From contig CAINMV010000009.1 of the NCBI GenBank assembly GCA_903850915.1, forward strand, positions 1 to 64,000: DNA of 64,000 bases, read 5' to 3'. Shown in pieces: positions 10,651-24,002 of the stretch (position 1 is the first letter of the stretch; each line of letters starts with the position of its first letter). Both the position numbers and the translations under genes were made by a program. The notes under the pieces were generated by a model. It saw nothing but the letters and a program-made list of their open reading frames with translations. It made no database searches and was not told where the DNA came from. Source of the DNA: an uncultured Bacteroidota bacterium (GTDB lineage: Bacteria; Bacteroidota; Bacteroidia; UKL13-3).

Positions 10651-12570
10651 TTATCTGGGCACGTACGTTTTATTGCCATTGGAATTAATGTAGTACTTGC
10701 CTCCCTTAGAGCCCGTTTTCAATGACTTCCCTCCACCCATAGCTCCGACATCACTCATATTAGCGCCTAAACTTGCCGCCTTTTTATAGTAAACTTGGGC
10801 TATATCTATCTGATGTAGGAAAAAGTAGCAATGTCCAATAGCTTTAAATAATTCCCCATCATCTTTTTTATAGGTGGCTGCCTTTAGCATTAATTTCAGT
10901 CCAATTTCTCTAGCTTTCTGCCTGCGTTCGTCGCTGCCAGCACTATGGTCATCTGAGTTATAATCTGCATAGTAATAGCCAAATTCAGCGATTATATCGT
11001 AACCTACATTTAAGCTGATTTTATTTTGATCGATTGCATTTAACACAACCTGATAGTCTAAATTAGAATAAATTTTGTACTCCACGAATTCAACCATACT
11101 CTGAGCTTTCAACTTCTTAAAAGCCTCTAAAAACAATTGAAGTTGGTCTTTATTCAGCTTTTTATCTACTAAATCGGCGCAATATGACCAATCGATGGAA
11201 TCGCGAATTGGCCAATACGATTTAATAAGGTGATTGAATAACAAGATGTTAGTATCAACATCTTTTTTTTCTGACACTTTTTCCAACATGCCATTGATTA
11301 CCTCAAATGACAATTTTTCTTGGAATGCGTTGTCAAAAAGTTTTGTAGGGTCTTTTTTACTCCAATGGTTAAAGACAAGAAAAACATGACAGCTTTCTAA
11401 CAAAGAGCTACAGTCTTTGCATTGCCCATTTCCAATGAGATTTTTCTTGATAAAGGTCTGCGCATTCTCATATTGTCGCCCTTTTATTAGCAGTTCAGCA
11501 TAGGATCGCATTAACGCATAATCACCTTGAAAAAGTCGTATTCCACGTTCTAAATTTTGCGAGAAATAATTAATAAATAGGGGTGAACGATCATCAGGTA
11601 AAATTACCTTTGCATCATTAATGATTTTGCCAATCAAAATTTCTGCTTGGTTCTTGTTGTTGTTTAAGATTCCCGAATATGCCGTAGGTTTAGATTGATT
11701 GTTTTTTTCAGGGGAAATTAAATCATTTATAGCGCCAATAAGTAGTTTGTAATTTTGGCTATTTTCAGAGTCTAAGTTAATCAGAGTATTATAGCAATTC
11801 GCTTCTTTAAAATGCTCTTCGAATTCATGAAATGCGGTTCCGAGATTTTTTGCTGATGCTGCTTGTTTCGTAGTCTTCAGTTTTTGGTAGTTAATTTCAT
11901 TTTGCTCTTCTTCAAGCATGTATTGACCTTCGGTTTTGGGTATAGATCCCCTTCCATCAAAAGCCACGTTTGGAATTCTTCGATTTAAAAAGTCATACAT
12001 TGCAATGGAAGCGGTATCGTTTAGTCCTTCCATGTTAATATATAGCCGGGCTATTTGTTGCATTTTTAGCGTGTATTTTTTGCATTGGTTCTCCATTACG
12101 TGCATTTCGCTTTGGTAAGGACGATTTAATCGAATATCGTTGTAGTAATTGAAAAGGTTTCCGAGTATAGGTTTGGTTGTATTTTCGTCAACCATAATGT
12201 ATGCCGCTAGTTGGTCCAAAAACACTGCATTTCGAAGGAATGTTTTTTCGTTAAAAAACGAACATAAAGTAGCTAGAATTTCCGGGTTTAATACCTTTCT
12301 ATTCTCTATTGTTAAGTTATTATAAAATGGCTTAATCCTGTCAGTTATTTCGGCATACGATTTTTTACTATAGAGGCTTTTAATTAAAAAGTTAAAACTG
12401 CACATATCACTCGGATTGTCTTTTAAAATTGCATCAGCAAGTGTTATCGTTTCAGTAAATTTATTTTTTGAAAACAGTACTTCTAAATCTTTGCAAGTGT
12501 AGGCTTTTGAGGTTTGCGCGCCGATTATGGCAATTAAAAATAGGATGGCTTTTTTAATTTTTTTTTTCAT
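10651..12570 (-). CDS. Secreted TPR-like protein with basic C-terminal adaptor tail
   Basis: 639 residues with a signal peptide (KKKIKKAILFLIAIIGAQTS, cut near SKA). The body is almost entirely helical with TPR-like spacing: a first pair near residues 35-70 (ADAILKDNPSD) and a last unit near 575-610 (AIGHCYFFLHQIDIAQVYYK). The C-terminus is separated by a Gly/Lys-rich linker and reads GSKGGKYYINSNGNKTYVPR. This resembles the short PBCV-type basic adaptor motif (GGKYYINxxGxKxYV) found at ends of varied surface and phage-related proteins. It is the last gene of a four-gene minus-strand set. The three small genes upstream overlap one another, and this one follows after 65 bases. Function unknown; a periplasmic or surface scaffold is a guess. 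Confidence 0.7.
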   Translation of the reverse strand: MKKKIKKAILFLIAIIGAQTSKAYTCKDLEVLFSKNKFTETITLADAILKDNPSDMCSFNFLIKSLYSKKSYAEITDRIKPFYNNLTIENRKVLNPEILATLCSFFNEKTFLRNAVFLDQLAAYIMVDENTTKPILGNLFNYYNDIRLNRPYQSEMHVMENQCKKYTLKMQQIARLYINMEGLNDTASIAMYDFLNRRIPNVAFDGRGSIPKTEGQYMLEEEQNEINYQKLKTTKQAASAKNLGTAFHEFEEHFKEANCYNTLINLDSENSQNYKLLIGAINDLISPEKNNQSKPTAYSGILNNNKNQAEILIGKIINDAKVILPDDRSPLFINYFSQNLERGIRLFQGDYALMRSYAELLIKGRQYENAQTFIKKNLIGNGQCKDCSSLLESCHVFLVFNHWSKKDPTKLFDNAFQEKLSFEVINGMLEKVSEKKDVDTNILLFNHLIKSYWPIRDSIDWSYCADLVDKKLNKDQLQLFLEAFKKLKAQSMVEFVEYKIYSNLDYQVVLNAIDQNKISLNVGYDIIAEFGYYYADYNSDDHSAGSDERRQKAREIGLKLMLKAATYKKDDGELFKAIGHCYFFLHQIDIAQVYYKKAASLGANMSDVGAMGGGKSLKTGSKGGKYYINSNGNKTYVPR

Positions 12571-12635
12571 TGTAGTGTCTTGATTAGTTTGGCTCTATTT
12601 AACGTTGTTGCTTCTGCTGAAGTTTTTTTTAATAA

Positions 12636-12821
12636 TTACAATTTAAAAAGTTTTGTGATAACCCAATACCAAAAGGCTGAGATGATTATCATACCTAAAA
12701 TTACACCAAAAACACCAACAACCTTTATTAATTTAACTCCAAACACATCAATTTCTTTTTGAATTTTTTGTTCGTTTGTGTTTAGCTTTTCTTTGTTTGC
12801 TTTATTTTTAATGAGTGTCAT
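12636..12821 (-). CDS. Small single-span membrane protein (61 aa)
   Basis: A charged, Lys/Glu-rich N-terminal half (about residues 5-25) is followed by one hydrophobic helix, roughly residues 33-56 (KVVGVFGVILGMIIISAFWY), and a short basic tail. Its ATG (12819-12821) overlaps the TGA of the preceding gene in an ATGA arrangement, which supports it being translated by coupling. I recognise no family. It lies between a two-to-three-span membrane protein and the TPR protein of the same set and may help anchor them. Confidence 0.6.
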   Translation of the reverse strand: MTLIKNKANKEKLNTNEQKIQKEIDVFGVKLIKVVGVFGVILGMIIISAFWYWVITKLFKL

Positions 12822-13144
12822 GCAATTTCACTGGTTTTGAAAACGGTGATTAGTAATATTAATAAAGCCATTGCATTAGTAATCAGTGATCCGAAGCCGA
12901 TATAAAAATAAACGGCGTCATGGTTAGGGCTGGAGGTTCGGAATAATGAGAACGACAAAACACTAAAAACAGCAATGCAAATTAGAGAGAGCAATCCCCA
13001 CCAAAAGCTATTTCTATTTCTGCTTTTCGCCCTATATGCAAAGATGCTGAAAAGCAAGCCAGAGAAGAAAGAGCTAATTAGATAAACAAATAAGAGTAAA
13101 ACAGGTGATCCTGAGTCAGAAGTTAAAGGCTTGTTTTTTGTCAT
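12818..13144 (-). CDS. Small multi-span membrane protein (108 aa)
   Basis: Three probable membrane helices: about residues 14-36 (VLLLFVYLISSFFSGLLFSI), 48-68 (WWGLLSLICIAVFSVLSFSL) and 78-102 (YIGFGSLITNAMALLILLIT). A short basic loop (YRAKSRNRNS) lies between the first two. Both ends overlap neighbours by four bases (ATGA): its start overlaps the stop of a 55-residue gene upstream, and its stop overlaps the start of the 61-residue gene downstream. This argues for a translationally coupled operon. No family recognised. Confidence 0.65.
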   Translation of the reverse strand: MTKNKPLTSDSGSPVLLLFVYLISSFFSGLLFSIFAYRAKSRNRNSFWWGLLSLICIAVFSVLSFSLFRTSSPNHDAVYFYIGFGSLITNAMALLILLITVFKTSEIA

Positions 13145-13308
13145 TTTTTAAACAATAAGTTTAGCACCTTTCTTCCAATTTTTCGTTCCATTCCGCCTTT
13201 GGTTGTTGGTATGCCAGTCTTACGAGCGATACTATTTTTTAGGCTGCTAACACCGAGAAGCCTAGAAAGGGAAAATGAAAATCCATATTTGCCTTTAAAT
13301 CCGAGCAT
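13141..13308 (-). CDS. Short basic protein with GIPTTKGG...RKIGR motif (55 aa)
   Basis: A short gene of 56 codons from ATG 13308 to a TGA at 13141-13143 that overlaps the next gene's ATG. The product begins MLGFKGKYGFSFSLSRLLGV and continues SSLKNSIARKTGIPTTKGG then MERKIGRKVLNLLFKK. It is strongly basic. It carries a pattern I recognise only as a recurring short motif of small Bacteroidota hypothetical proteins: S-x-x-R-x-x-G-[IV]-x-x-x-K-x-x-I-x-R-x-T-G-I-P then R-K-[IL]-G-R. The motif plus the ATGA overlap make it a likely real gene and the first of the set. Function unknown; nucleic-acid or membrane-surface contact is possible from its charge. Confidence 0.6.
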   Translation of the reverse strand: MLGFKGKYGFSFSLSRLLGVSSLKNSIARKTGIPTTKGGMERKIGRKVLNLLFKK

Positions 13309-13402
13309 GTTTTATTTGTTTAGTGGTTTTAGAGAAACATCTTTTTTGCTGAAATTCAAGTGAATGATGAATTCTAATCTCGAATAATGATAATAGTTAA
13401 AG

Positions 13403-13410
13403 CAAATATA
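13403..13410 (-). promoter_or_regulatory. Possible -7 box for the small-protein operon
   Basis: On the minus strand the sequence is TATATTTG, a perfect TAnnTTTG match, 95 bases upstream of the 55-residue gene. No good -33 element is visible at the usual spacing, so this is tentative. Confidence 0.35.
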
Positions 13411-13520
13411 GTAATTTTTATTGCTAATTTATTAATGAAAAATGTCAGTATTATCCTTCAAATTGTTCTTTGGGTATTTTAAAAAAAACCTAATTTTCCC
13501 GAATATAAAAGTATTGATTT

Positions 13521-14468
13521 ATGGATAATGGTTATTTTAGAGGACTGAAAAACAGTAAAGTGCTTCAAGGTATAAAGCTTCTTATTCCGATACCTTTTGA
13601 TTTTATAACATTAAAAAGAAGATATCTTTTTCTCTTTGAAATTATTATTAATGTAAGGTATTTTTTCTTTTTTTATAGGTCGCTTCCGCACAACGCATAT
13701 TTTGAGAAGATTAAATCAAGCCCATTAGTAATTTATAAATACTTTGGAAACTCAATTTCATTAGGTTTTTCCGTGTACGATAAAATCAAAATATATAAAT
13801 TTCATTATGATGTCATGATTAATAGGTTAGAGGAAATCCATTTGTCATCTATCGGTATATCCTCAGTTCAATTGTGGCATAAAAAAGTTGAATCTGACAT
13901 TCATGAGATTATTCTTTTTAGTACTTCTAGTTTGAATTCAGAATTAGAAGGGGCGCTAACCATGGCGTATCTTTTTAATGGTACGACATTGTTTAAGCTC
14001 ATCTTCACGCATATACCTGGTAATATAATAGAAGGGCTGCAAAAAGATGGTGTTTTTGTGGGTTGCTCGCAAGGAACAACCGGAAATCGAGAATTGTGGA
14101 AGCTAGCCACTAAACAAAACTTGAGATTGTCGCCTGATGACATTTTGTTGTTAGCGCTGCAAGCATGGGCTATAAAAAATAACGCCCAAAGTATTGTAGG
14201 GGTTAATGCGGAGAATCAAGTCTCTGAGGAGGTAATTGTTGGAGGGCCTTCGAAACATCTAAGAACTTATCAAACATTTTGGATGCATAATAGTGGCGAG
14301 CGCGTTGGTGATTATTTTTTATTGCCAATCGAACCTGTATTGAAGGAGAAGAAGGATAGGAATAATTATAGTTCTCGAGATAAAAAAATTCACGCGATGC
14401 GTATCGAAATTTATAATCAGATTCAACAGAATTTAGTTGGTGTGATAAGGGCAATAATTCATGTTTAA
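13521..14468 (+). CDS. VirK/YbjX (DUF535) family protein
   Basis: 315 residues. The diagnostic stretch of the family is present: EGALTMAYLFNGTTLFKLIF (about 151-170), then VFVGCSQGTTGNRELWKLAT (about 189-208), then RLSPDDILLLALQAWA and VGVNAENQVS. The family pattern is EGxLxL...LYxLxF...IGxxQG...TKxxxGLRPxxLL. Characterised relatives (Shigella VirK, Salmonella YbjX) are envelope-associated proteins linked to export of a surface protein or to antimicrobial-peptide resistance; the biochemical role is not established. A glycosyltransferase follows 91 bases downstream on the same strand, which fits a surface-related role. It has a low-complexity, Phe/Tyr-rich N-terminus. Confidence 0.75.
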   Translation: MDNGYFRGLKNSKVLQGIKLLIPIPFDFITLKRRYLFLFEIIINVRYFFFFYRSLPHNAYFEKIKSSPLVIYKYFGNSISLGFSVYDKIKIYKFHYDVMINRLEEIHLSSIGISSVQLWHKKVESDIHEIILFSTSSLNSELEGALTMAYLFNGTTLFKLIFTHIPGNIIEGLQKDGVFVGCSQGTTGNRELWKLATKQNLRLSPDDILLLALQAWAIKNNAQSIVGVNAENQVSEEVIVGGPSKHLRTYQTFWMHNSGERVGDYFLLPIEPVLKEKKDRNNYSSRDKKIHAMRIEIYNQIQQNLVGVIRAIIHV

Positions 14469-14487
14469 GTTTGGGCTATGAATTTTT

Positions 14488-14523
14488 TATCTTTGTTTTT
14501 TTATCTTTGTTTTTTTATCTTTG
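14488..14523 (+). promoter_or_regulatory. Three tandem -7 boxes (TATCTTTG x3, 14-bp period)
   Basis: TATCTTTG occurs at 14488-14495, 14502-14509 and 14516-14523, each followed by a T-run, so the 14-base unit is repeated three times exactly. Each copy is a perfect Bacteroidota -7 element. They lie just before the glycosyltransferase and show that a TTG at 14521 inside the third copy is not the start codon. Repeat-number change by slippage could alter transcription of the gene. Confidence 0.6.
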
Positions 14524-14559
14524 TTTTTTTTAGTTGGAAATACATTCAGGTATAAGAGA

Positions 14560-15681
14560 TTGAAAATACTACATATAATTAATAGCTTAGGTATAGGAGG
14601 TGCTGAAAATTCGCTCTATAATCTAGTTCGATTAGATTTAGAGAATTCACATATCGTCGTTTCATTATCAAAAGCTGAGGCTAACGTAATTCCAATTTCA
14701 TCACTCGGTGTTCAAGTTTATTTTTTAAACTTTAGAAGCCCATTTTTCTTTATTGAATTTGTTAAACTAATTAAGATAGTTCGTTATGAAAAGCCTGCAG
14801 TAATCCAAACGTGGTTGTATGTTTCAGATTTAATTGGTTCATTGGCAGCGGTTTTTTTTCGAAAGGCACGTTTGTTTTGGAATATACGGAATGGTAGTTT
14901 GAATCCATTAATCGTGTCCAAAGCCTCAATATTAACTGCGTATTTGTGCTCTTATTTGGCTAAAAAATATCCTCAGAAAATTATTTGTTGCTCCAATGCA
15001 GCCATTAAAGTGCATGTTGATTTTGGATATCAACGGAGTAAATTTTACATAATTCACAATTCGGTGGATGTGGGGAAGTTTAATATTTTAAATCACACGA
15101 CGCATCTGCAACGTAAATTTAATATTGAATCCGATATACTTACTTTTGGATATGTCGGACGATATGATCCGCAAAAAGGGCATTCAGTTTTATATGCGGC
15201 GTTAGCATTATATAAATTAAGTTCTAATTTAAAGTTTAAATTGTTATTAGCTGGGACAAATATCACCAATTGTAATTCAAGATTAATGGACGAAATACAT
15301 AAATTTTCATTGCAAGATAATGTTATTCTTTTGGGTCCTCAAGATAATATTGTTGACGTATATCAGGTTTTGGATATTCATATTTTACCCAGTTTAAGTG
15401 AAGGTTTTCCAAATGTTGTTGCTGAGTCTATGGCTTGTGGTATTCCAAATGTAGTGTCAGATGTTGGTGAGGCAGCCTATATTGTAGGTGATTGTGGTTG
15501 GGTTTGTGAAAAAAGTGATCCTGAATCGATGCTGAAAAGTATAATTGAAGCAGTAAATGAACGAAGCCATAGGGAGAAATGGCAAAGGCGAAAAGAAGCG
15601 TGCAGAAACAGGATTGTCACAAGTTTCGCAGAAGAGAAAATGCTTCAAGCCTACATTAATGTATGGAATTCGTCGACTTGA
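14560..15681 (+). CDS. Glycosyltransferase family 4
   Basis: A GT-B fold retaining glycosyltransferase acting at the cytoplasmic face of the membrane, expected to extend a lipid-linked surface glycan; donor and acceptor are not predictable. From TTG 14560 the product begins MKILHIINSLGIGGAENSLY, the standard GT4 N-terminal loop. The C-terminal half shows FGYVGRYDPQKGHSVL and the E-x7-E signature (EGFPNVVAESMA) with GEAAYIVGDCGW after it. The start is chosen because upstream in-frame codons fall inside the triple -7 box and because KILHIINSLG is where homology normally begins. About 373 residues, normal for the family. It stands alone rather than in a polysaccharide cluster. Confidence 0.85.
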   Translation: MKILHIINSLGIGGAENSLYNLVRLDLENSHIVVSLSKAEANVIPISSLGVQVYFLNFRSPFFFIEFVKLIKIVRYEKPAVIQTWLYVSDLIGSLAAVFFRKARLFWNIRNGSLNPLIVSKASILTAYLCSYLAKKYPQKIICCSNAAIKVHVDFGYQRSKFYIIHNSVDVGKFNILNHTTHLQRKFNIESDILTFGYVGRYDPQKGHSVLYAALALYKLSSNLKFKLLLAGTNITNCNSRLMDEIHKFSLQDNVILLGPQDNIVDVYQVLDIHILPSLSEGFPNVVAESMACGIPNVVSDVGEAAYIVGDCGWVCEKSDPESMLKSIIEAVNERSHREKWQRRKEACRNRIVTSFAEEKMLQAYINVWNSST

Positions 15682-15705
15682 AGGTCAAGTAATACTTTGT
15701 TTTAA

Positions 15706-16389
15706 TTATTTCGAGGACTCTAGGCTTGAAAACACCAGTGTGTTTAAAAACTCAACCAGTTTTTTTTCATTAATGTCTTTTGGGAAGTCTGTTAATGAGG
15801 GTAAGTTTTTTTTGAAAAAGTTTTGACTATGAGCAATCTCAATGATAGTGCTCGCCAATGAATGTGGATATTTATACTTGGAATTGTATTCTGAAATTAC
15901 CGATGCAATTCTCCCACATAAGTCCTTATATGGCTTGAATAACCTGTCTTTATTGTCTTTTGTAATGTTTCTTGAAAGGTAAGTTTTGGATCCGTCTGAA
16001 ACCACCAATTTATAGGCCTCACTTTCAGATATAAATTCGAGTTTCTTTTTTTTAGTAGTTGGCTCTTGTGCAATAAGCTTAATTATAGTTTCTAATTTAA
16101 GTTTTTCGTCATTTAAATTATGTAGATAATATATTACCTTATATTCTAAATAACTCCAATACCAAGTGATTATATAAACTAATAACCGGTGTTTGTTTTC
16201 GAAATACCGATATATACTTGCTTCCGTTGTGTCAATTTCTATAGATAGCTTTTTAAATGTGAAGTTTTCAAAGCCAATTTTGTTTATAAGAAATAAGCCT
16301 TGAGCCACTATTTTTTTTCCTAAGGTTGTCTCTTCTGGATTCCTTAGGAATAGCTTGTTATTCATTTTTATTTTAAAATCTAATTCCAT
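15706..16389 (-). CDS. TetR/AcrR family regulator
   Basis: The N-terminal TetR helix-turn-helix is clear: TLGKKIVAQGLFLINKIGFE, then NFTFKKLSIEIDTTEASIYR and YFENKHRLLVYII. The remaining 150 residues are the helical ligand-binding/dimer domain. ATG 16389 (MELDFKIK) is preferred to a TTG at 16410, because that TTG lies within a minus-strand -7 box; ATG 16365 is also possible. It is divergent from the ABC-HlyD fusion gene and tolC. A perfect palindrome lies between the two promoters, so it probably represses both itself and the exporter until a ligand binds. Tail-to-tail with the glycosyltransferase gene, 24 bases apart. Confidence 0.82.
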   Translation of the reverse strand: MELDFKIKMNNKLFLRNPEETTLGKKIVAQGLFLINKIGFENFTFKKLSIEIDTTEASIYRYFENKHRLLVYIITWYWSYLEYKVIYYLHNLNDEKLKLETIIKLIAQEPTTKKKKLEFISESEAYKLVVSDGSKTYLSRNITKDNKDRLFKPYKDLCGRIASVISEYNSKYKYPHSLASTIIEIAHSQNFFKKNLPSLTDFPKDINEKKLVEFLNTLVFSSLESSK

Positions 16390-16407
16390 AGAAACGGCTT
16401 TTGCCTG

Positions 16408-16436
16408 CAAATTTAAATATAAAGTAATACAATCAA
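16408..16436 (-). promoter_or_regulatory. Promoter of the TetR-family gene
   Basis: On the minus strand TTG (16434-16436), 18 bases, then TAAATTTG (16408-16415). The start point would be close to 16402, which rules out the TTG start at 16410. Confidence 0.55.
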
Positions 16437-16440
16437 TAAT

Positions 16441-16455
16441 AATAGTATTACTATT
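16441..16455. promoter_or_regulatory. Putative TetR operator palindrome
   Basis: AATAGTA-T-TACTATT is a perfect 7-1-7 inverted repeat. It lies between the divergent promoters, next to the -33 region of the regulator gene and over that of the exporter gene. Position and symmetry fit an operator for the adjacent TetR-family protein. AT-rich background makes a chance palindrome possible. Confidence 0.5.
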
Positions 16456-16472
16456 TTTGAAGTTTTATTTAT

Positions 16473-16480
16473 TATCTTTG
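16473..16480 (+). promoter_or_regulatory. -7 box of the exporter operon
   Basis: TATCTTTG, a perfect match to TAnnTTTG, ends 15 bases before the ATG of the fusion gene. TTTG at 16456-16459 is upstream but only 13 bases away, so the -33 element is uncertain. Confidence 0.6.
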
Positions 16481-16495
16481 CACAAATTATTATAG

Positions 16496-18745
16496 ATGCA
16501 AAAGGCAAAACTACTTTTTACTTGGCTTTACAGGGAAAGGAAAAGTTTATATAGTATTTATTTACTAGCTTTACTTCAAGGGGCAATGTATTTGCTAATT
16601 CCTATTGGTATCCAAGGTATTGTCTCTTTTATTATGGTTGGAGAGTTTTCCGCATCTTTAATTTTACTTAGTTGTATCACAATATTAGTTGTTGGTTTTA
16701 TCGGATTTTTCCAGATATGGCAAATTCGGGTTAACGAAACAATGCACCAAAAAATATTTGGAAGATTAGTGTCGAAGTTAAATGATTATTTAATTACGGC
16801 TAAGCCAAAGAAAAACCTACTGAATGAAATTAATAAATTTAATGAAGTAGTAACACTTCAGAAGGGAATTAGCAAGATTCTGTTGGACTTTTCATTCTCA
16901 TTAATTAGCATTGTTTTTGGCATATTAATTTTACCTACATATAGTACCTGGTTTTTATTGTTTACCATTTCCTTAGGATCCGTATTTTATTTTATTATTC
17001 GTTATTATGGATCGAAGGGGATTGAAACGAATATTGAAACATCGAATTATAAATATAAAATTATAGAGGGGTTTCAGAAAACTGCAGTGTTAGGTGTCGA
17101 CGAGGAGAGGAGTAATGAAACGGATATTCTTTTAAATAATTATTTTAGCTCCCGTAAAAGCCATTTTAACATACTTGAGTTGCAATATAAAGGCATTATT
17201 ATTTTTAAAGTTGTTTTCATAAGTGTGCTTTTGTTTCTAGGTGCTTTTTTGGTTCAAAAAGGTCAACTTACTATTGGTCAGTTCATTGCCTCTGAAATTT
17301 TTATTTTCTTGATTATTAATGCAGTAGAAAAATTAGTAGAAAGTCTTAATACATGCTATGATATTATAACTGCATTATATAAAATAGAAGGGATTTTTTC
17401 CGAGCATGCTAATCTTTCTTTTATTAAAGGAGAAAGTCATTTATTAAGTAGTGTTTCAAACATTTATAACCATCCATATTCAAGGGTTCTAAAGAATTCG
17501 ATATTTGTTATTTTTCTTGCTTTCTTTATAATCTTGCTGATGCCTTGGACTCAGAATGTGAAATCCAAAGGGAGGGTTACAACTATAAATCCGCAGTATC
17601 GACCTCAGGTTATAACATCTCGTATTGCTGGCAGGGTTGAAAAGTGGTATATCAAGGAAGGTGATTTCGTAAGTAAGAATGACACAATTGCATTTATATC
17701 TGAAATAAAAGATGATTATTTCGATACCCAGCTAATTCAAAGATCAGAAAGTATAATTAAGTCGAAGGAAACAACAATTGCCGCATATAAGGATAAAATG
17801 GGTGCTGTGAATTCTCAGATTGATGCTCTCTATCAAGCAAGGCAATTTAAGTTAGAGCAGGCAAAAAACAAAATAATGCAAACGCGATTGAAGATTATTG
17901 CGGATAGCATTGATGCTAAAACCTCTTTTGATAATTTCAATATTGCCGTTGCCCAATACAACAGATACAATGATTTGTTGGCTAAAGGTATTGTATCTAA
18001 AACTGAATTAGAGAATCGAAAGGTTAAAATGCAGGAGGCTATTTCCAAAAAGACGGCGTCAGAGAATAAATTTTTAGCGACTAAAAACGAATTGTTAAAT
18101 GCTGAAATAGAGTTGAATTCCTTAAACCAAGAATATCAGGAGAAGCTAATGAAGGCTGAATCAGAAAAGTTTTCTGCTCAATCATTGCAATTTGAGGGTG
18201 AAGGTTCTTTGACGAAATTGCAGAATCAGTTATCTAATTATAACAAACGTAAGGAGTATGGTTATGTGCTTTCTCCTCAAGATGGATATATTTCAAAAAC
18301 TGATATTCAAGGCCTTGGTGAGATAATAAAAGAGGGGTCAGCCTTGTGTAATATAGTTCCGAAGCAAATGGAGCAGGCCGTTGAATTATACGTAAATCCA
18401 ATTGATTTGCCTTTGATACAGATCGGACAAAAGGTTCAAATTCAATTCGATGGTTGGCCGGCTTTTGTGTTTTCGGGTTGGCCTGGTGTAAGCTATGGAA
18501 GTTATTCGGCTGAAGTTGTGGCTTACGATAGGGTATTGTCTATTAATGGCAAATTTCGAATTCTTGCGAAAGGAGTTGGCGATAAATGGCCAGAATCGAT
18601 TCAGTTGGGTGGCGGTGTAGAAGGATTTGCCATGCTTAAAAATGTGCCCTTGTTTTATGAATTATGGAGAAAGTTAAATGGATTCCCACCTGAATTTTAT
18701 GCCCATCCACCTGATGTTAAGGACGATAAAAAATATTCAAAATAA
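16496..18745 (+). CDS. ABC exporter membrane domain fused to HlyD adaptor, no ATPase domain
   Basis: 749 residues joining two proteins that are normally separate. Residues 1-300 are an ABC exporter transmembrane domain (helices near 15-45, 52-75, 128-172, 232-282), of the Bacteroidota type that normally continues into a nucleotide-binding domain. Here there is no Walker A, signature or Walker B motif. After a short linker (about 301-330) an HlyD-type adaptor begins: membrane anchor 332-351, lipoyl/barrel-sandwich half (VTTINPQYRPQVITSRIAGR) near 362-381, long coiled coil about 425-590, second half and beta-barrel (SPQDGYISK; GWPAFVFSGWPGVSYG), and a family-typical end (WRKLNGFPPEFY). The simplest origin is an in-frame deletion of the ATPase domain plus the start of hlyD. 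tolC overlaps its stop (TAATG). Whether it can export anything without a partner ATPase is open; none is encoded nearby. Confidence 0.85.
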   Translation: MQKAKLLFTWLYRERKSLYSIYLLALLQGAMYLLIPIGIQGIVSFIMVGEFSASLILLSCITILVVGFIGFFQIWQIRVNETMHQKIFGRLVSKLNDYLITAKPKKNLLNEINKFNEVVTLQKGISKILLDFSFSLISIVFGILILPTYSTWFLLFTISLGSVFYFIIRYYGSKGIETNIETSNYKYKIIEGFQKTAVLGVDEERSNETDILLNNYFSSRKSHFNILELQYKGIIIFKVVFISVLLFLGAFLVQKGQLTIGQFIASEIFIFLIINAVEKLVESLNTCYDIITALYKIEGIFSEHANLSFIKGESHLLSSVSNIYNHPYSRVLKNSIFVIFLAFFIILLMPWTQNVKSKGRVTTINPQYRPQVITSRIAGRVEKWYIKEGDFVSKNDTIAFISEIKDDYFDTQLIQRSESIIKSKETTIAAYKDKMGAVNSQIDALYQARQFKLEQAKNKIMQTRLKIIADSIDAKTSFDNFNIAVAQYNRYNDLLAKGIVSKTELENRKVKMQEAISKKTASENKFLATKNELLNAEIELNSLNQEYQEKLMKAESEKFSAQSLQFEGEGSLTKLQNQLSNYNKRKEYGYVLSPQDGYISKTDIQGLGEIIKEGSALCNIVPKQMEQAVELYVNPIDLPLIQIGQKVQIQFDGWPAFVFSGWPGVSYGSYSAEVVAYDRVLSINGKFRILAKGVGDKWPESIQLGGGVEGFAMLKNVPLFYELWRKLNGFPPEFYAHPPDVKDDKKYSK

Positions 18746-20136
18746 TGAAGTTTTTTCTTTTCACCTTTTTGTTAATGACTTGTTTTTGCAGTGCGCAAAT
18801 ACCATATCAACTTCGGTATGAAGAATTCCTATCGAACGTGCTAAAGTTTAATCCGCTGTCGATGCAAGCCGAGAATGAAACACGGTATTCAAACTACTTG
18901 CTTAAAGCCGCAAAAGGGAGTTTTGATCCTCTGCTATCAGGAAATTATAATCAAAAAAAGTTTGGAGGGGTAAACTATTTTACAACGCTAAATAGCGAAG
19001 TTAAACAACCGATATTTTCATCGCAATATTTGAAATTTGGATACGATTTTGGTTCAGGTATGTATATAAATCCCGAACAAAAAACATCAAGCATCGGATT
19101 GCCTTATCTTGGAATTGAAGTGTCTGTTCTGCAGGGCTTAATAATTGACAAGAGAAGGGCAGAACTTCTAAAAGCAAAAGAGTATTTGAATTACTACTCC
19201 GCAGAAAAGAATGTTCAACTAAATTTACTACTCTTTGAAGCATCTCAGCGTTATTTTGAGTGGTTGTTATCAATAAAACAAGTGTCATTAAATCAATATT
19301 TCATGGAATTAGCCGGGCAAAGGCTTAAAGGTATTGAAGAGCTCGTAAATTACGGTGAACGAGCATCCATTGACACGGTGGAGTCAATGCTTTATTATAA
19401 AAGTCGGCTTATGGATTATCAAAATGCCCTTATAAACATTAAAAAGGCTGAAAACGATATGACAGCATTCAATTGGAAAGATAATACATCATCTGATTTC
19501 TCCTTAAAATATAAGACATTGGATAGCATCGAAACTTATTTTATTAAGGCGAAGGTGTTTTTTTATCAGAATCTTAACGCTGAAGAGCCATCAAACCCAA
19601 TATTAATAAAATATGCCTCGTTTCAAAAGGTTTTGGAAATTGAAAATCGATTTAAAAAGGAGCTGTTAAAGCCAAACCTAAATCTAAAATACAATTTATT
19701 GTCGAATAATGCTGTTGCCTACAATTCAGATTTTTATGTTAACAACTGCAAGTTCGGAATTAATTTATCTTTTCCAGTTTTTTTAAGGATTCAAACGAGT
19801 GAATATAAAATTGCGAAATTAAAATCACAAAACAACAATTTGGAAATATTGAATAAAACGAATGAGCTTAACAGTAAAATAAGTACTGTAAAAAACACCA
19901 TTGTTATTTTAACAAATCAATTAGAAATTGCGGCTTACATCTCGAACAACACGAAGTTATTGTTGGATGCAGAGCAACTGAAATTTGACAATGGAGAAAG
20001 CAATCTTTTTATGTTAAATCAAAGAGAGAATAAAGTGCTTGAATCTGAAATAAAACTTGCTGAATTTAAGTTAAAGTACATTGTGGCGGTCTTAAATCTT
20101 ATTTACCTAAATGGTAGTTTAAATTATTCTTTTTAA
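18745..20136 (+). CDS. TolC family outer membrane efflux protein
   Basis: Outer membrane channel of a type I secretion/efflux system, 463 residues, about the usual length. A signal peptide (MKFFLFTFLLMTCFCSAQ) precedes two repeated helical halves. Typical elements are ENETRYSNYLLKAAKGSFDP near residue 43, and FLRIQTSEYKIAKLKSQNNN plus a Leu/Asn-rich coiled coil in the second half. The ATG overlaps the stop of the upstream ABC-HlyD fusion by one base, so the two are co-transcribed and probably translationally coupled. The pair would form a continuous membrane-fusion/outer-membrane conduit regulated by the TetR-family gene. Confidence 0.85.
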   Translation: MKFFLFTFLLMTCFCSAQIPYQLRYEEFLSNVLKFNPLSMQAENETRYSNYLLKAAKGSFDPLLSGNYNQKKFGGVNYFTTLNSEVKQPIFSSQYLKFGYDFGSGMYINPEQKTSSIGLPYLGIEVSVLQGLIIDKRRAELLKAKEYLNYYSAEKNVQLNLLLFEASQRYFEWLLSIKQVSLNQYFMELAGQRLKGIEELVNYGERASIDTVESMLYYKSRLMDYQNALINIKKAENDMTAFNWKDNTSSDFSLKYKTLDSIETYFIKAKVFFYQNLNAEEPSNPILIKYASFQKVLEIENRFKKELLKPNLNLKYNLLSNNAVAYNSDFYVNNCKFGINLSFPVFLRIQTSEYKIAKLKSQNNNLEILNKTNELNSKISTVKNTIVILTNQLEIAAYISNNTKLLLDAEQLKFDNGESNLFMLNQRENKVLESEIKLAEFKLKYIVAVLNLIYLNGSLNYSF

Positions 20137-20274
20137 CCTTTGCAAACCACTACATTTTTAGTGTATGGGGTGTCTTTTGTAAATCAAGTTTTGGAAAAGG
20201 ATACGTTTTTTAAGGTAAATATCATCGGATAAAAGTTTGTTCTTAATATGTTTTTTATTCGTAAGTGAACTTTG

Positions 20275-20282
20275 TAACTTCG
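20275..20282 (+). promoter_or_regulatory. Possible -7 box for the phosphatase-family lipoprotein gene
   Basis: TAACTTCG, one mismatch from TAnnTTTG, 33 bases before the ATG at 20316. The same variant occurs before the TPP riboswitch at 57739. The rest of the 179-base gap (20137-20315) shows no gene. Confidence 0.35.
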
Positions 20283-20315
20283 TGCTTGATAAGTGTACCT
20301 TTATCATAAGTTAAA

Positions 20316-21248
20316 ATGAAAGTAAACGAAAAAACAAAAGCCGTATTTCTACTTCTTTTCTTTGGAATCTTTAACGCATGCTCATCGCATCATCCCGCCA
20401 ATGGCCTATCAGGTAATTATTTACCTCCCCATGATTCAGAAATCATAAATATAGATAGCACGACTAGATTAACACCAAATAAAACTGCGGTTACGGAAGT
20501 AAGCATTGTTTCATGGAATTTAAAGGATTTTGGCGCTTCAAAATCAGAAGTCACTATGGAGTTTATCGCAAATACCGTAAAGGATTTCGATATTCTGATA
20601 ATTCAAGAAGTGGTAGGTAAGGATCCGGGTGGAGCCCAAGCGGTAGCAAGACTTTGTAGTGTTCTAAATCGTAAAGGTGCCAAATGGGATTATGCAATAA
20701 GTGATATTACCTCTAGTACTACGTTTAAAGCTGAACGATATGCATATGTTTGGAAGCCATCGCGTGTTACGATTAGCGGACGCCCATGGTTGGAAAAACA
20801 ATATAATTTAGAAATAGAACGTGAACCATTTTTTGCCACCTTTGCATTACTCGACAAGAAATTTACGCTTGTAAATTTTCATGCGATAACAAAAAGCAAA
20901 CAGCCTGAAACAGAGATAAAATATTTCAAGTATCTACCTGAAGAATACCCAGAGTTGAACTTAATTTTCGTTGGCGATTTTAACTGCCCGCAATCTCATT
21001 CCGTGTTTATTCCTTTGCGCAAAATGGGCTACGCTTCTGTGTTCACCAATCAAAAGACGTCGTTGCGAAAAAGCTGTATTAATTTAGATTGCCTCGCTTC
21101 GGAATTCGATAATATTTTCTACGATAGGTCGAAGGTGAACCTGTTAGGCTCCGACGTCATTCATTTTTATAGAAACTTTGGATCACTTAAAGAGGCTGAA
21201 ATGGTGTCAGATCACATTCCAATTTTCTTTAAATGCACATTAAAGTAA
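20316..21248 (+). CDS. Endonuclease/exonuclease/phosphatase-family lipoprotein
   Basis: 310 residues. A lipoprotein signal ends in FGIFNAC-SSH (Cys about residue 22), so the mature protein is membrane-anchored outside the cytoplasm. The EEP fold is shown by VSWNLKDFG (metal-binding Asn), DILIIQEVV (catalytic Glu), VNFHAITKS, FVGDFNCPQ (Asp/Asn pair) and SDHIPIFF (catalytic His) at the end. Members cleave phosphodiesters in nucleic acids, phosphoinositides or sphingolipids. The substrate cannot be told from the sequence. An extracytoplasmic nuclease for DNA scavenging is plausible; a sphingomyelinase-type role is an alternative. Single-gene unit. Confidence 0.8.
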   Translation: MKVNEKTKAVFLLLFFGIFNACSSHHPANGLSGNYLPPHDSEIINIDSTTRLTPNKTAVTEVSIVSWNLKDFGASKSEVTMEFIANTVKDFDILIIQEVVGKDPGGAQAVARLCSVLNRKGAKWDYAISDITSSTTFKAERYAYVWKPSRVTISGRPWLEKQYNLEIEREPFFATFALLDKKFTLVNFHAITKSKQPETEIKYFKYLPEEYPELNLIFVGDFNCPQSHSVFIPLRKMGYASVFTNQKTSLRKSCINLDCLASEFDNIFYDRSKVNLLGSDVIHFYRNFGSLKEAEMVSDHIPIFFKCTLK

Positions 21249-21276
21249 ATACAACAACAATAAAAAGAGCCTCTGT

Positions 21277-22665
21277 TTAAAGATGAATACACTCGCCATA
21301 GGCTTGTGCAACAGCTTCCATTATTGCTTCGCTCATGGTTGGATGTGGATGAACACTTTTTATGATTTCGTGTCCGGTGGTTTCTAAATTACGGGCAACG
21401 ACCACTTCTGCAATCATTTCTGTAACTCCGGCACCAATAAAATGTGCGCCTAACCATTCGCCGTATTTGGCATCGAAAATCACTTTTATCATGCCATCTT
21501 TTGTTCCTGCCGCTGATGCTTTTCCGGATGCAGAGAATGGGAATTTTCCAACTTTAATATCGTAGCCTTTTTCTCTGGCTGCTTTCTCTGTTAGGCCTAC
21601 CGATGCTACTTCCGGATTGGTATAGGTGCATCCTGGTATATTTCCATAGTTTAATGGATGAGGTTTTAGTCCTGCGATATTTTCAATGCAAATAATTCCT
21701 TCTGCACTAGCCACATGTGCCAAAGCAGGGCCACTGGTGATATCACCAATAGCATATACCCCTGGAACGTTGGTGCGATAGTATTCATCAACAAGTATCT
21801 TGCCTTTGTCAACAGCTACTTTGTTTTCTTCTAATCCAATATTTTCCAAGTTGGTAGTTATTCCTACCGCAGATAGAACAATATCACATTCTAACACCTC
21901 ATTTCCTTTCGGTGTTTTTACATTTACCTTACATGCTTTTCCTGCAGTATCTACACTCTCTACTGAAGATGAAGTCATTATAGTAACACCATTCTTTTTA
22001 AAGATGCGTTCCATTTGCTTTGAAATTTCTTCGTCTTCGACAGGCAGAATATTTGGAAGGAATTCAACTACCGTAACCTTGGTTCCCATAGAGTTATAGA
22101 AATACGCAAACTCCATTCCGATGGCGCCGCTACCCATTATCACCATTGATTTTGGAAGGTTTTCTAAGGCCATTGCCTTTCGGTAGCCTATTATTTTTTC
22201 ATTGTCAATTTTGATATTCGGAAGCTCTCGGCTACGTGCCCCGGTGGCTAAAATAATATGCTTGGAGGTATGGGTTTCTTTGGTGCCGTCTTCTTTAGTT
22301 ACCTCTACCTTGCCACTTCCGGCAAGTTTCCCGAATCCATTAATGACTTCAATTTTGTTCTTTTTCATTAAAAACTGAACGCCTTTGCTCATGCCATTGG
22401 CTACCTCACGGCTACGTTTTACCACGTGTTTAAAATCTGCACTATACTCTTGAACAGTGATTCCGTAATCAGGCGCATGCTTAATATACTCGAATACCTG
22501 TGCGGATTTGAGAAGCGCTTTTGTTGGAATGCATCCCCAATTAAGACAAATGCCTCCGATCTCAGCACGTTCTACAATACCCGTCTTTAATCCAAGTTGT
22601 GAAGCACGAATCGCAGCTACATATCCACCAGGACCACTACCGACAATTATTACATCTAAATTCAT
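21277..22665 (-). CDS. lpdA: Dihydrolipoyl dehydrogenase (E3)
   Basis: Flavoenzyme that reoxidises the dihydrolipoyl arm of 2-oxoacid dehydrogenases and the glycine cleavage system, passing electrons to NAD. 462 residues, full length. FAD-binding IIVGSGPGGYVAAIRASQLG is at 6-25. The redox disulphide is Cys40/Cys45 in GGICLNWGCIPTKALL. NAD-binding VIMGSGAIGMEFA lies near 175, and GVYAIGDI near 305 contacts FAD. The catalytic His-Glu pair is in HPHPTMSEAI near the C-terminus. No E1/E2 genes are adjacent. lipA, which makes the lipoyl cofactor, is 7 kb away on the other strand. A hypothetical-free 219-base gap lies upstream with a promoter at 22695. Confidence 0.95.
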   Translation of the reverse strand: MNLDVIIVGSGPGGYVAAIRASQLGLKTGIVERAEIGGICLNWGCIPTKALLKSAQVFEYIKHAPDYGITVQEYSADFKHVVKRSREVANGMSKGVQFLMKKNKIEVINGFGKLAGSGKVEVTKEDGTKETHTSKHIILATGARSRELPNIKIDNEKIIGYRKAMALENLPKSMVIMGSGAIGMEFAYFYNSMGTKVTVVEFLPNILPVEDEEISKQMERIFKKNGVTIMTSSSVESVDTAGKACKVNVKTPKGNEVLECDIVLSAVGITTNLENIGLEENKVAVDKGKILVDEYYRTNVPGVYAIGDITSGPALAHVASAEGIICIENIAGLKPHPLNYGNIPGCTYTNPEVASVGLTEKAAREKGYDIKVGKFPFSASGKASAAGTKDGMIKVIFDAKYGEWLGAHFIGAGVTEMIAEVVVARNLETTGHEIIKSVHPHPTMSEAIMEAVAQAYGECIHL

Positions 22666-22694
22666 AGTAATAGGATTTAATGATTTTTAAATGG

Positions 22695-22702
22695 CAAAAG
22701 TA
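22695..22702 (-). promoter_or_regulatory. -7 box of lpdA
   Basis: Minus-strand TACTTTTG, perfect TAnnTTTG match, 30 bases before the lpdA ATG. The rest of 22703-22884 shows no gene and no clear terminator. Confidence 0.5.
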
Positions 22703-22884
22703 AGGAATTGCTTGTGAAAAAATTAATTTCCTAAAATTAACTAATCCGATGGCGTTAAGCCTTTTAATATCAAGTTTAAGCACGATGATTATCTTCTAGC
22801 GATTAAGCCATCTGTTTTAAAAAGAAAAAAGAGGGTGGCGAGAAATCCTAATTTTAAAAGAATCAGGCGTTGCTCAACTGATAA

Positions 22885-23985
22885 TTATTTCTTCTTGAAA
22901 TTGTCAGCGAACACTAAGGATGGATTTTGGGCCACGAACTTGGCACCACTTTCATGCACAATATCAATAATTTTATAGTTCATCTCTTCTTTTACCGCAG
23001 CCAATATTTCAAAGTCGTCGGAATTGGCGAAGTAAATGACATCAATACCGAGGTAGTTATTTTGCAATTCAGCAAAGGTAACAAGGTAGTTTTTTTCAAT
23101 TCTATCGTTGGATTCTAATTCTTGATTTATTCGATTGATAATGCTTTTGATTTGATTAGCACTAGAATCGTAGGTAAGGCATAAGGTAAAACGAACTCTT
23201 CGGATTTCTGCTCTGCTCAAATTATTAAGGGCACTGTCGACAAGCTTTTTGTTGGGAACTGAAAGAAGTGTTTTATCCATGGTGCGGATGCGTGTGCTTC
23301 TAAATCCAACATTTTCTACCACCCCTTTTAGTTCTGGGGTTTCTACAAGGTCGCCTACTGTAAATGGCTTGTCGCTAAAAATAATAATACTGCCAATAAG
23401 GTTGGCAATGGTTTCTTGCGCTGCCAAGGCAATGGCCAAACCACCAATACCTAAACCAGCAATTACACCAGCAGCATCTTCATGAAAAACGTTTCTTAGA
23501 ATAATAAAAAAGCTGATTAGGATGATTGCAATTTTACCCAAATCTTTGATGAACAAAACCATCTGCGGGTCAATATGTTTTAAACTGCGTGTGCGGGTTT
23601 GAAATACATAGCCAATATAGTCGGTCACACGCATCACACTCCAGGCAATGGTGCCAATCATATACACTTTAAATAGGCCTATGATGTATGGACTAAATTC
23701 AAATTCTTTGTTCATCAAAACCAAATCTTCGGAATACTTTAGAATATTAAAGATGGCGATGATAACCATGCCCATAAAAAAGTGCTCGGCGGGTTTACGA
23801 ATCAGTACAATAAACTGCTTCGCATGCAAGTTTTTAGAGTATTTTCTGAAAAAAGTGAATAGTAGGGCACTTAATAATTTAGCGCCATAGCGCTTTAGAA
23901 ATAATCCGAGTAAAAGCAAAATGGATGCTGTAATATACACCCAAATTGGATTGTCGCAGAAGAACTGTGAAATTTCTTGTCGCAT
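22885..23985 (-). CDS. MscS-family mechanosensitive channel
   Basis: 366-residue inner membrane channel that opens under membrane tension to release solutes in hypo-osmotic shock. There are four to five hydrophobic helices in residues 12-175. The pore-lining TM3 is AAGVIAGLGIGGLAIALAAQ, with the Gly/Ala packing typical of MscS. The beta domain follows: ETIANLIGSIIIFSDKPFTV and GDLVETPELKGVVENVGFRS. A C-terminal alpha/beta domain ends in a basic tail. The extra N-terminal helices make it longer than E. coli MscS (about 286 residues). Single gene, divergent from a small lipoprotein. Confidence 0.9.
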   Translation of the reverse strand: MRQEISQFFCDNPIWVYITASILLLLGLFLKRYGAKLLSALLFTFFRKYSKNLHAKQFIVLIRKPAEHFFMGMVIIAIFNILKYSEDLVLMNKEFEFSPYIIGLFKVYMIGTIAWSVMRVTDYIGYVFQTRTRSLKHIDPQMVLFIKDLGKIAIILISFFIILRNVFHEDAAGVIAGLGIGGLAIALAAQETIANLIGSIIIFSDKPFTVGDLVETPELKGVVENVGFRSTRIRTMDKTLLSVPNKKLVDSALNNLSRAEIRRVRFTLCLTYDSSANQIKSIINRINQELESNDRIEKNYLVTFAELQNNYLGIDVIYFANSDDFEILAAVKEEMNYKIIDIVHESGAKFVAQNPSLVFADNFKKK

Positions 23986-24002
23986 TATTGTTTTTTTTGA
24001 TT

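Follow-up and report, generated by a model that had tools for sequence, protein, structure and literature searches.

What defines an ABC exporter is its ATPase, a nucleotide-binding domain (NBD) that is docked by the coupling helices at the tips of the cytoplasmic loops. The gene analysed here, from an uncultured Bacteroidota bacterium, encodes an ABC exporter membrane domain that runs into an HlyD-type adaptor in one chain, and its nearest precedents are the SbmA/BacA transporters and the type I secretion system HlyB-HlyD-TolC. In the latter, three HlyB dimers come together with six HlyD adaptors (PMC11026475), and the structure 8dck contains six HlyB and six HlyD chains. The one-to-one ratio of the fusion is compatible with this assembly, and the fusion shares with type I secretion an HlyB-class fold, an HlyD adaptor with the TolC tip motif, and an adjacent tolC gene. 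However, it is without an ATPase, exporter and adaptor are one chain, the docking loops are eroded, no secreted substrate is recognised nearby, and the adaptor scores under the cut-off of the NCBIfam type I HlyD model.

SbmA is an ABC-type membrane domain that has lost both the NBD and the coupling helices and is proton-driven (PMC13316013). Like these transporters (SLiPT), the fusion has an ABC-type membrane domain minus the NBD and a full-length ABC ancestor. Unlike them, it belongs to the HlyB/PCAT-class branch, is a proposed exporter rather than an importer, and carries a periplasmic adaptor tied to TolC. On its sequence family and its lack of TM0 helices the fusion falls outside SLiPT, and it also falls outside the strict ABC transporters, as the defining ATPase was looked for and is absent.

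Two further groups offer partial parallels. The split relatives of the fusion, in which exporter and adaptor are separate genes, resemble the degenerate-site exporters TM287/288, TAP, BmrCD, and CFTR in keeping Walker A and losing the catalytic Glu and the H-loop, whereas in the latter, whether heterodimers or full transporters, one site remains active. In plan, the fusion resembles the MFS and RND systems EmrAB-TolC and AcrAB-TolC, which combine a proton-driven inner-membrane pump with an adaptor and TolC, and its HlyD half is nearest EmrA; its inner-membrane part, however, is ABC-derived and covalently attached to the adaptor. By analogy, the fusion would work most like a cross between the architecture of HlyB-HlyD-TolC and the NBD-less logic of SbmA. 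No description of the fusion or of its degenerate relatives was found in the open-access literature, subscription papers and preprints being outside the scope of the search.

The fusion gene and its operon

The fusion gene begins with ATG, has no internal stops, and is intact. Its parts and neighbours in the window (the whole stretch of 64,000 nucleotides analysed) are as follows.

15706..16410, minus strand: divergent TetR-family regulator (PF00440), a neighbour kept in fused and split operons
16442..16454, no strand: palindrome ATAGTATTACTAT, candidate TetR operator, found next to TetR in the majority of operons of both forms
16473..16480, plus strand: promoter-like element TATCTTTG, found by eye
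16496..18745, plus strand: fusion gene, 749 aa, ABC exporter membrane domain and HlyD adaptor without an NBD, HlyB-class
16496..17395, plus strand: complete six-helix ABC exporter membrane domain, residues 1-300 (PF00664, model, HlyB fold match)
16757..16858, plus strand: first cytoplasmic (coupling) loop, residues 88-121, tip between helices 53-101 and 108-149, constraint lost in the fused clade
17042..17161, plus strand: second cytoplasmic (coupling) loop, residues 183-222, tip between helices 151-199 and 203-254, constraint lost in the fused clade
17396..17485, plus strand: variable linker and junction, residues 301-330 (alignment conservation, comparison with split proteins)
17483..17539, plus strand: HlyD transmembrane helix, helix 7 of the fusion, residues 330-348 (model)
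17486..18742, plus strand: complete HlyD-type adaptor, residues 331-749 (Pfam, alignment, model, Foldseek matches EmrA/MacA/HlyD)
17963..17998, plus strand: TolC-docking motif RxxxLxxxxxxS at the hairpin tip, residues 490-501 (alignment of 37 fused proteins)
18745..20136, plus strand: TolC-family outer-membrane channel gene (PF02321, E 4e-27)

The initial annotation described a single chain in which an ABC membrane domain of 300 residues passes through a linker of about 30 residues into a complete HlyD, with the junction at about 17396-17486. Pfam and the models agree with this layout, and linker residues 301-330 map to 17396..17485. The Pfam ABC_membrane match covers residues 22-276 with 30.2 bits against a cut-off of 28, and HlyD_3 and HlyD_D23 exceed their cut-offs in the C-terminal half; neither ABC_tran nor the SbmA/BacA family matched anywhere in the fusion protein. 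Among fused proteins the linker is the least conserved part (mean 45%), and its second half is similar to the cytoplasmic tail of split HlyD proteins. The adaptor consists of the lipoyl halves, a coiled-coil hairpin (411-581), a barrel, and a conserved C-terminal WR..NGFPP region. R490, L494, and S501 of the docking motif, as defined for TolC (RLS/RLT; PMC3391258), do not vary among the 37 fused proteins aligned.

Because the HlyD half dominated the whole-protein fold search, a model was made of the membrane half by itself. The AlphaFold2 model of residues 1-305, guided by 77 family sequences, has a pLDDT of 90 and a pTM of 0.83 and contains all six long helices in an arrangement like that of type IV ABC exporters. 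Helix ends 101/108 and 199/203 mark the tips of the cytoplasmic loops, and ahead of TM1 there is only a short elbow helix (3-13), TM0 helices being absent. Among the best 50 PDB matches of this model (Foldseek), the top TM-score belonged to 8dck_A, which is HlyB within the HlyB/HlyD complex (TM 0.86, 2.8 A), with PCAT1 and ComA likewise near the top. The full-length model adds helix 330-348, the hairpin, and the lipoyl and barrel parts; its HlyD half matched EmrA, MacA, and HlyD, with EmrA the best. With the HlyD helix coming after an even number of helices, the adaptor would lie in the periplasm, the correct topology.

The initial annotation also reported an operon of TetR, fusion, and TolC with a coupled tolC gene. 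The fusion stop and the tolC start share one base (TAATG at 18743-18747), and TetR is divergent, 85 bases from the fusion start; homologues suggest that its own start is the ATG at 16389. The absence of a nearby ATPase gene stands as well, as no ABC ATPase gene lies within 12000-24000 of the window. The element TATCTTTG is a candidate -7 promoter element, resembling the Bacteroidota form TAnnTTTG. The palindrome ATAGTATTACTAT has a single match in the 64-kb window with up to one mismatch allowed. In the form ATAGTANTACTAT (16442-16454) it occurs once in the 64-kb window, between TetR and the fusion, and it adjoins TetR in most operons, fused and split alike. TetR would bind ATAGTANTACTAT and thereby repress the operon. 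As one regulator-operator pair is common to both forms, the comparison suggests that the signal, and perhaps the substrate, was retained through the loss of the ATPase. The initial annotation did not foresee this shared operator, nor the degenerate ATPases and the second NBD-less clade described below.

No obvious gene for a secreted substrate was seen near the fused loci in the ORF lists. A gene for a CutA1-like protein of about 100 aa recurs by the fused operon, upstream or downstream, and in several cases directly before the fusion start (L033:11649-11948, L034:11640-11939, L063, L074, L075, L144, L162, L164, L165, L167, L169, and L170). It was considered as a conserved core partner and dropped: many fused operons have it as a neighbour, as does one split operon, yet no CutA1 match was found in the window genome.

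Distribution of the fusion and its unfused relatives

A search for the same fusion in other genomes, proposed in the initial annotation, was carried out by a genome-contig scan with class-wide and order-wide searches. It yielded 38 distinct full-length proteins with the fused architecture, 45-71% identical, from several Bacteroidia families; homologues thus do not all carry an ATPase between the two parts, as these 38 share the NBD-less fusion. The class-wide search gave 14 matches in 395 genomes, 10 of which, including the window, were fusions. In one order the fusion was found in 36 of 87 genomes (two of the matches being partial). The window's own family has it in 2 of 64 genomes, and the remainder have mostly the two-gene form or none. 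The nearest relatives of the window copy belong to another order, and its own family is mainly two-gene, which suggests horizontal transfer.

Fused proteins are monophyletic in the tree of the HlyD half (SH-aLRT 100) and in that of the membrane half, which was computed without the cytoplasmic loops (support 100), and the clade has long internal branches. Among pairs with unsaturated dS, to which the estimates were restricted, dN/dS was 0.015-0.048 for the membrane core and 0.023-0.051 for HlyD. Judged from these ratios, purifying selection on the membrane half equals that on the adaptor half. The fusion is an old, conserved, and selected architecture.

Unfused operons have the order TetR, ABC (about 550 aa), HlyD, and TolC, with a single ABC gene per operon. 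Among 61 split-family NBDs, the Walker A Lys is present in 59, the Walker B Asp and the catalytic Glu in 15 each, the H-loop His in 7, and the LSGGQ signature in none; the Q-loop is mostly lost. By comparison, the Walker A Lys, Q-loop Gln, Walker B Asp, and H-loop His are each present in 4/4 of the motif reference, four canonical exporters from the window's own genome. Near-normal motifs are few and occur mostly in a distant outgroup (L128-L136), and in two split proteins, L086 and L138, the P-loop lysine is gone too. Therefore, despite their 'ABC ATPase' domain matches, the split-family NBDs are probably non-hydrolysing, and as the operon has one ABC gene, the motif content implies that both sites are degenerate. 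Many proteins annotated as 'ABC transporter ATP-binding protein' in split operons are thus probably not ATPases. The fused genes are derived from a TetR-ABC-HlyD-TolC operon whose ATPase was degenerate beforehand.

Several side observations concern the split form. The family of degenerate split exporters is widespread, occurring in 76 of 296 sampled genomes of the phylum at E<=1e-50; the 61 relatives compared above include L048 and L051. Some split ABC proteins have an N-terminal extension of 150-200 residues (L049:3313-5535, L054:4992-7295, L085:3044-5242, and L130-L135), in which no meaningful Pfam match was found; it is possibly a remnant C39-like domain. In two split-form genomes tolC appears to be divided into two overlapping ORFs (L080:2653-4055 and L134:1609-3055), through a frameshift or sequencing error.

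The initial annotation held that membrane domains of this type always continue into an NBD. This is contradicted by a sister clade with free membrane domains: in four genomes a membrane domain alone (about 333-349 aa) is followed directly by HlyD and TolC, with no NBD.

L124:3542-4561: free ABC membrane domain, no NBD, HlyD and TolC next
L125:3955-5004: free ABC membrane domain, no NBD, HlyD and TolC next
L126:5099-6103: free ABC membrane domain, no NBD, HlyD and TolC next
L127:4040-5041: free ABC membrane domain, no NBD, HlyD and TolC next

As these proteins form a clade separate from the fusions in both the HlyD-half and the membrane-half trees, the ATPase was lost at least twice, ATP hydrolysis being by then probably gone. 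Their docking loops are still conserved, and they may still dock something, or their loss of the NBD may be more recent.

How the fusion may work

We lean towards the view that the fusion supplies the inner-membrane part of a tripartite exporter that is linked to TolC, independent of ATP, derived from a type I secretion-like system and probably proton-coupled, a view in which we infer the oligomer, the transport, the energy source, the substrate, and TetR binding. The ancestral operon would have encoded a separate exporter with its ATPase, whose catalytic motifs would have been lost first; in the fused lineage the ATPase would then have been deleted along with the gene boundary, which left one protein. 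The membrane domain would form the usual exporter dimer, and its one-to-one joining to HlyD would permit the HlyB-HlyD assembly of three exporter dimers and six adaptors, with the adaptor tip docked on the TolC from the neighbouring gene. The membrane domain would still gate the substrate, its conformational cycle most likely being powered by a source other than ATP, for which proton coupling as in SbmA/BacA is the leading candidate. A gated exporter of this kind is favoured because of the TolC motif, the one-to-one HlyB-HlyD ratio, and the SbmA/BacA precedent. It agrees with one option in the initial annotation, that the protein works without an ATPase, and in addition the ATPase of the unfused relatives had already shed its catalytic motifs.

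The charged residues of the membrane domain bear on this view. In the fused clade, D131, K238, E267, E278, and K279 are nearly invariant and are placed inside hydrophobic stretches or border them. They are conserved equally in the split relatives and hence are not a signature gained on loss of the ATPase; they could be read as a pre-adaptation, though a different role is also possible. Similarly, most of the conserved acidic residues (E81, D131, E267, E278, and D289) are older than the loss of the ATPase. An SbmA-like glutamate ladder gained on fusion was considered and is unsupported, as E228, together with K232, is the sole fused-specific conserved charge.

A serious rival, though in our judgement a less likely one, is that the membrane domain is a mere scaffold which anchors HlyD and sets the geometry of the oligomer with no gating of its own, while the HlyD-TolC duct takes substrates from the periplasm or from another inner-membrane pump. 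The ATPase has proved expendable in several branches, the HlyD half retains all adaptor features including the TolC tip, and the periplasmic TM1-TM2 loop with its surroundings (residues 46-60), a possible HlyD contact, shows strong conservation specific to the fused proteins. Conservation of the membrane domain would also be expected from a purely structural role. However, the membrane core, its helices included, is selected as strongly as HlyD, and a passive anchor would not need to retain charges in hydrophobic stretches.

More speaks against a further option in the initial annotation, that another ABC exporter of the cell lends the fusion its ATPase in trans. There are four other ABC exporters in the window genome, and hetero-pairing of a degenerate with an active site is common among ABC exporters (PMC7756269). 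Nevertheless, the docking loops are unconstrained in the fused proteins alone. In thinned sets, the mean identity outside loops 88-121 and 183-222 was 0.60 for fused and 0.51 for split proteins, whereas inside the two loops it was 0.33 and 0.28 for fused against 0.53 and 0.46 for split proteins; constraint on the docking loops was therefore lost in the fused clade only, while the remainder of its membrane domain is more conserved. At matched divergence, loop identity in five bins was 0.23/0.28/0.32/0.45/0.57 for fused and 0.45/0.51/0.58/0.70/0.81 for split proteins, so that the fused value is about half to two-thirds of the split value in every bin. The Mann-Whitney p value of the effect is 4e-11, assuming independent sites, and in a circular-shift control, which respects the correlation between neighbours, 9 of 299 shifts were equally strong. 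The formal strength of the effect is therefore moderate, and the matched-divergence comparison is the better sequence evidence. As a counterpoint, the NBD-less unfused clade retains its docking loops, so loss of the ATPase need not bring loss of the loops.

When the NBD of L052, a close split relative and sister of the fused clade in the HlyD tree, was used as the query against seven fused and three NBD-less genomes, it matched ordinary ABC ATPases alone, and no NBD of the family type was found. The best matches in the fused genomes were about 31% identical and mostly ordinary full-length exporters, and no lone NBD was found in the seven fused genomes. A relocated ATPase was accordingly rejected, none of the family's NBD type being present elsewhere in the window genome or the other fused genomes searched. 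The loss of loop constraint in the fused clade and the lack of a family-type ATPase together make borrowing improbable.

An assembly collapse, or the recent in-frame deletion suggested in the initial annotation, which would have made a dying protein out of two genes, would fit the separate ABC and HlyD genes of most same-genus and same-family relatives, but can be set aside almost with certainty because dozens of independent genomes, at 45-71% identity, carry the fusion with the same junction, and the fused proteins form a single clade whose internal branches are long and whose dN/dS is low.

More broadly, and tentatively, the ATP-independent gated exporter may be the end of a stepwise swap of ATP hydrolysis for another energy source in a tripartite lineage of Bacteroidota, from an active-looking outgroup NBD through an NBD that only binds ATP to loss of the NBD at least twice, ending as a proton-driven, ABC-derived, TolC-dependent exporter-adaptor pump. 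Loss of the motor is known for the SbmA/BacA importers, in which the intermediates are mostly missing. The present family would represent a second, independent loss, this time in an export system, and a single phylum still holds its intermediates: an outgroup that is partly intact, a large set of relatives whose nucleotide-binding-like domain is broken, branches in which the P-loop lysine is missing as well, membrane domains that stand free, and the fusion. It opens to test how a primary transporter changes, what role an ABC membrane domain has when no ATP is burned, and how an HlyD-type adaptor pairs with its exporter. The family may thus export cargo without ATP.
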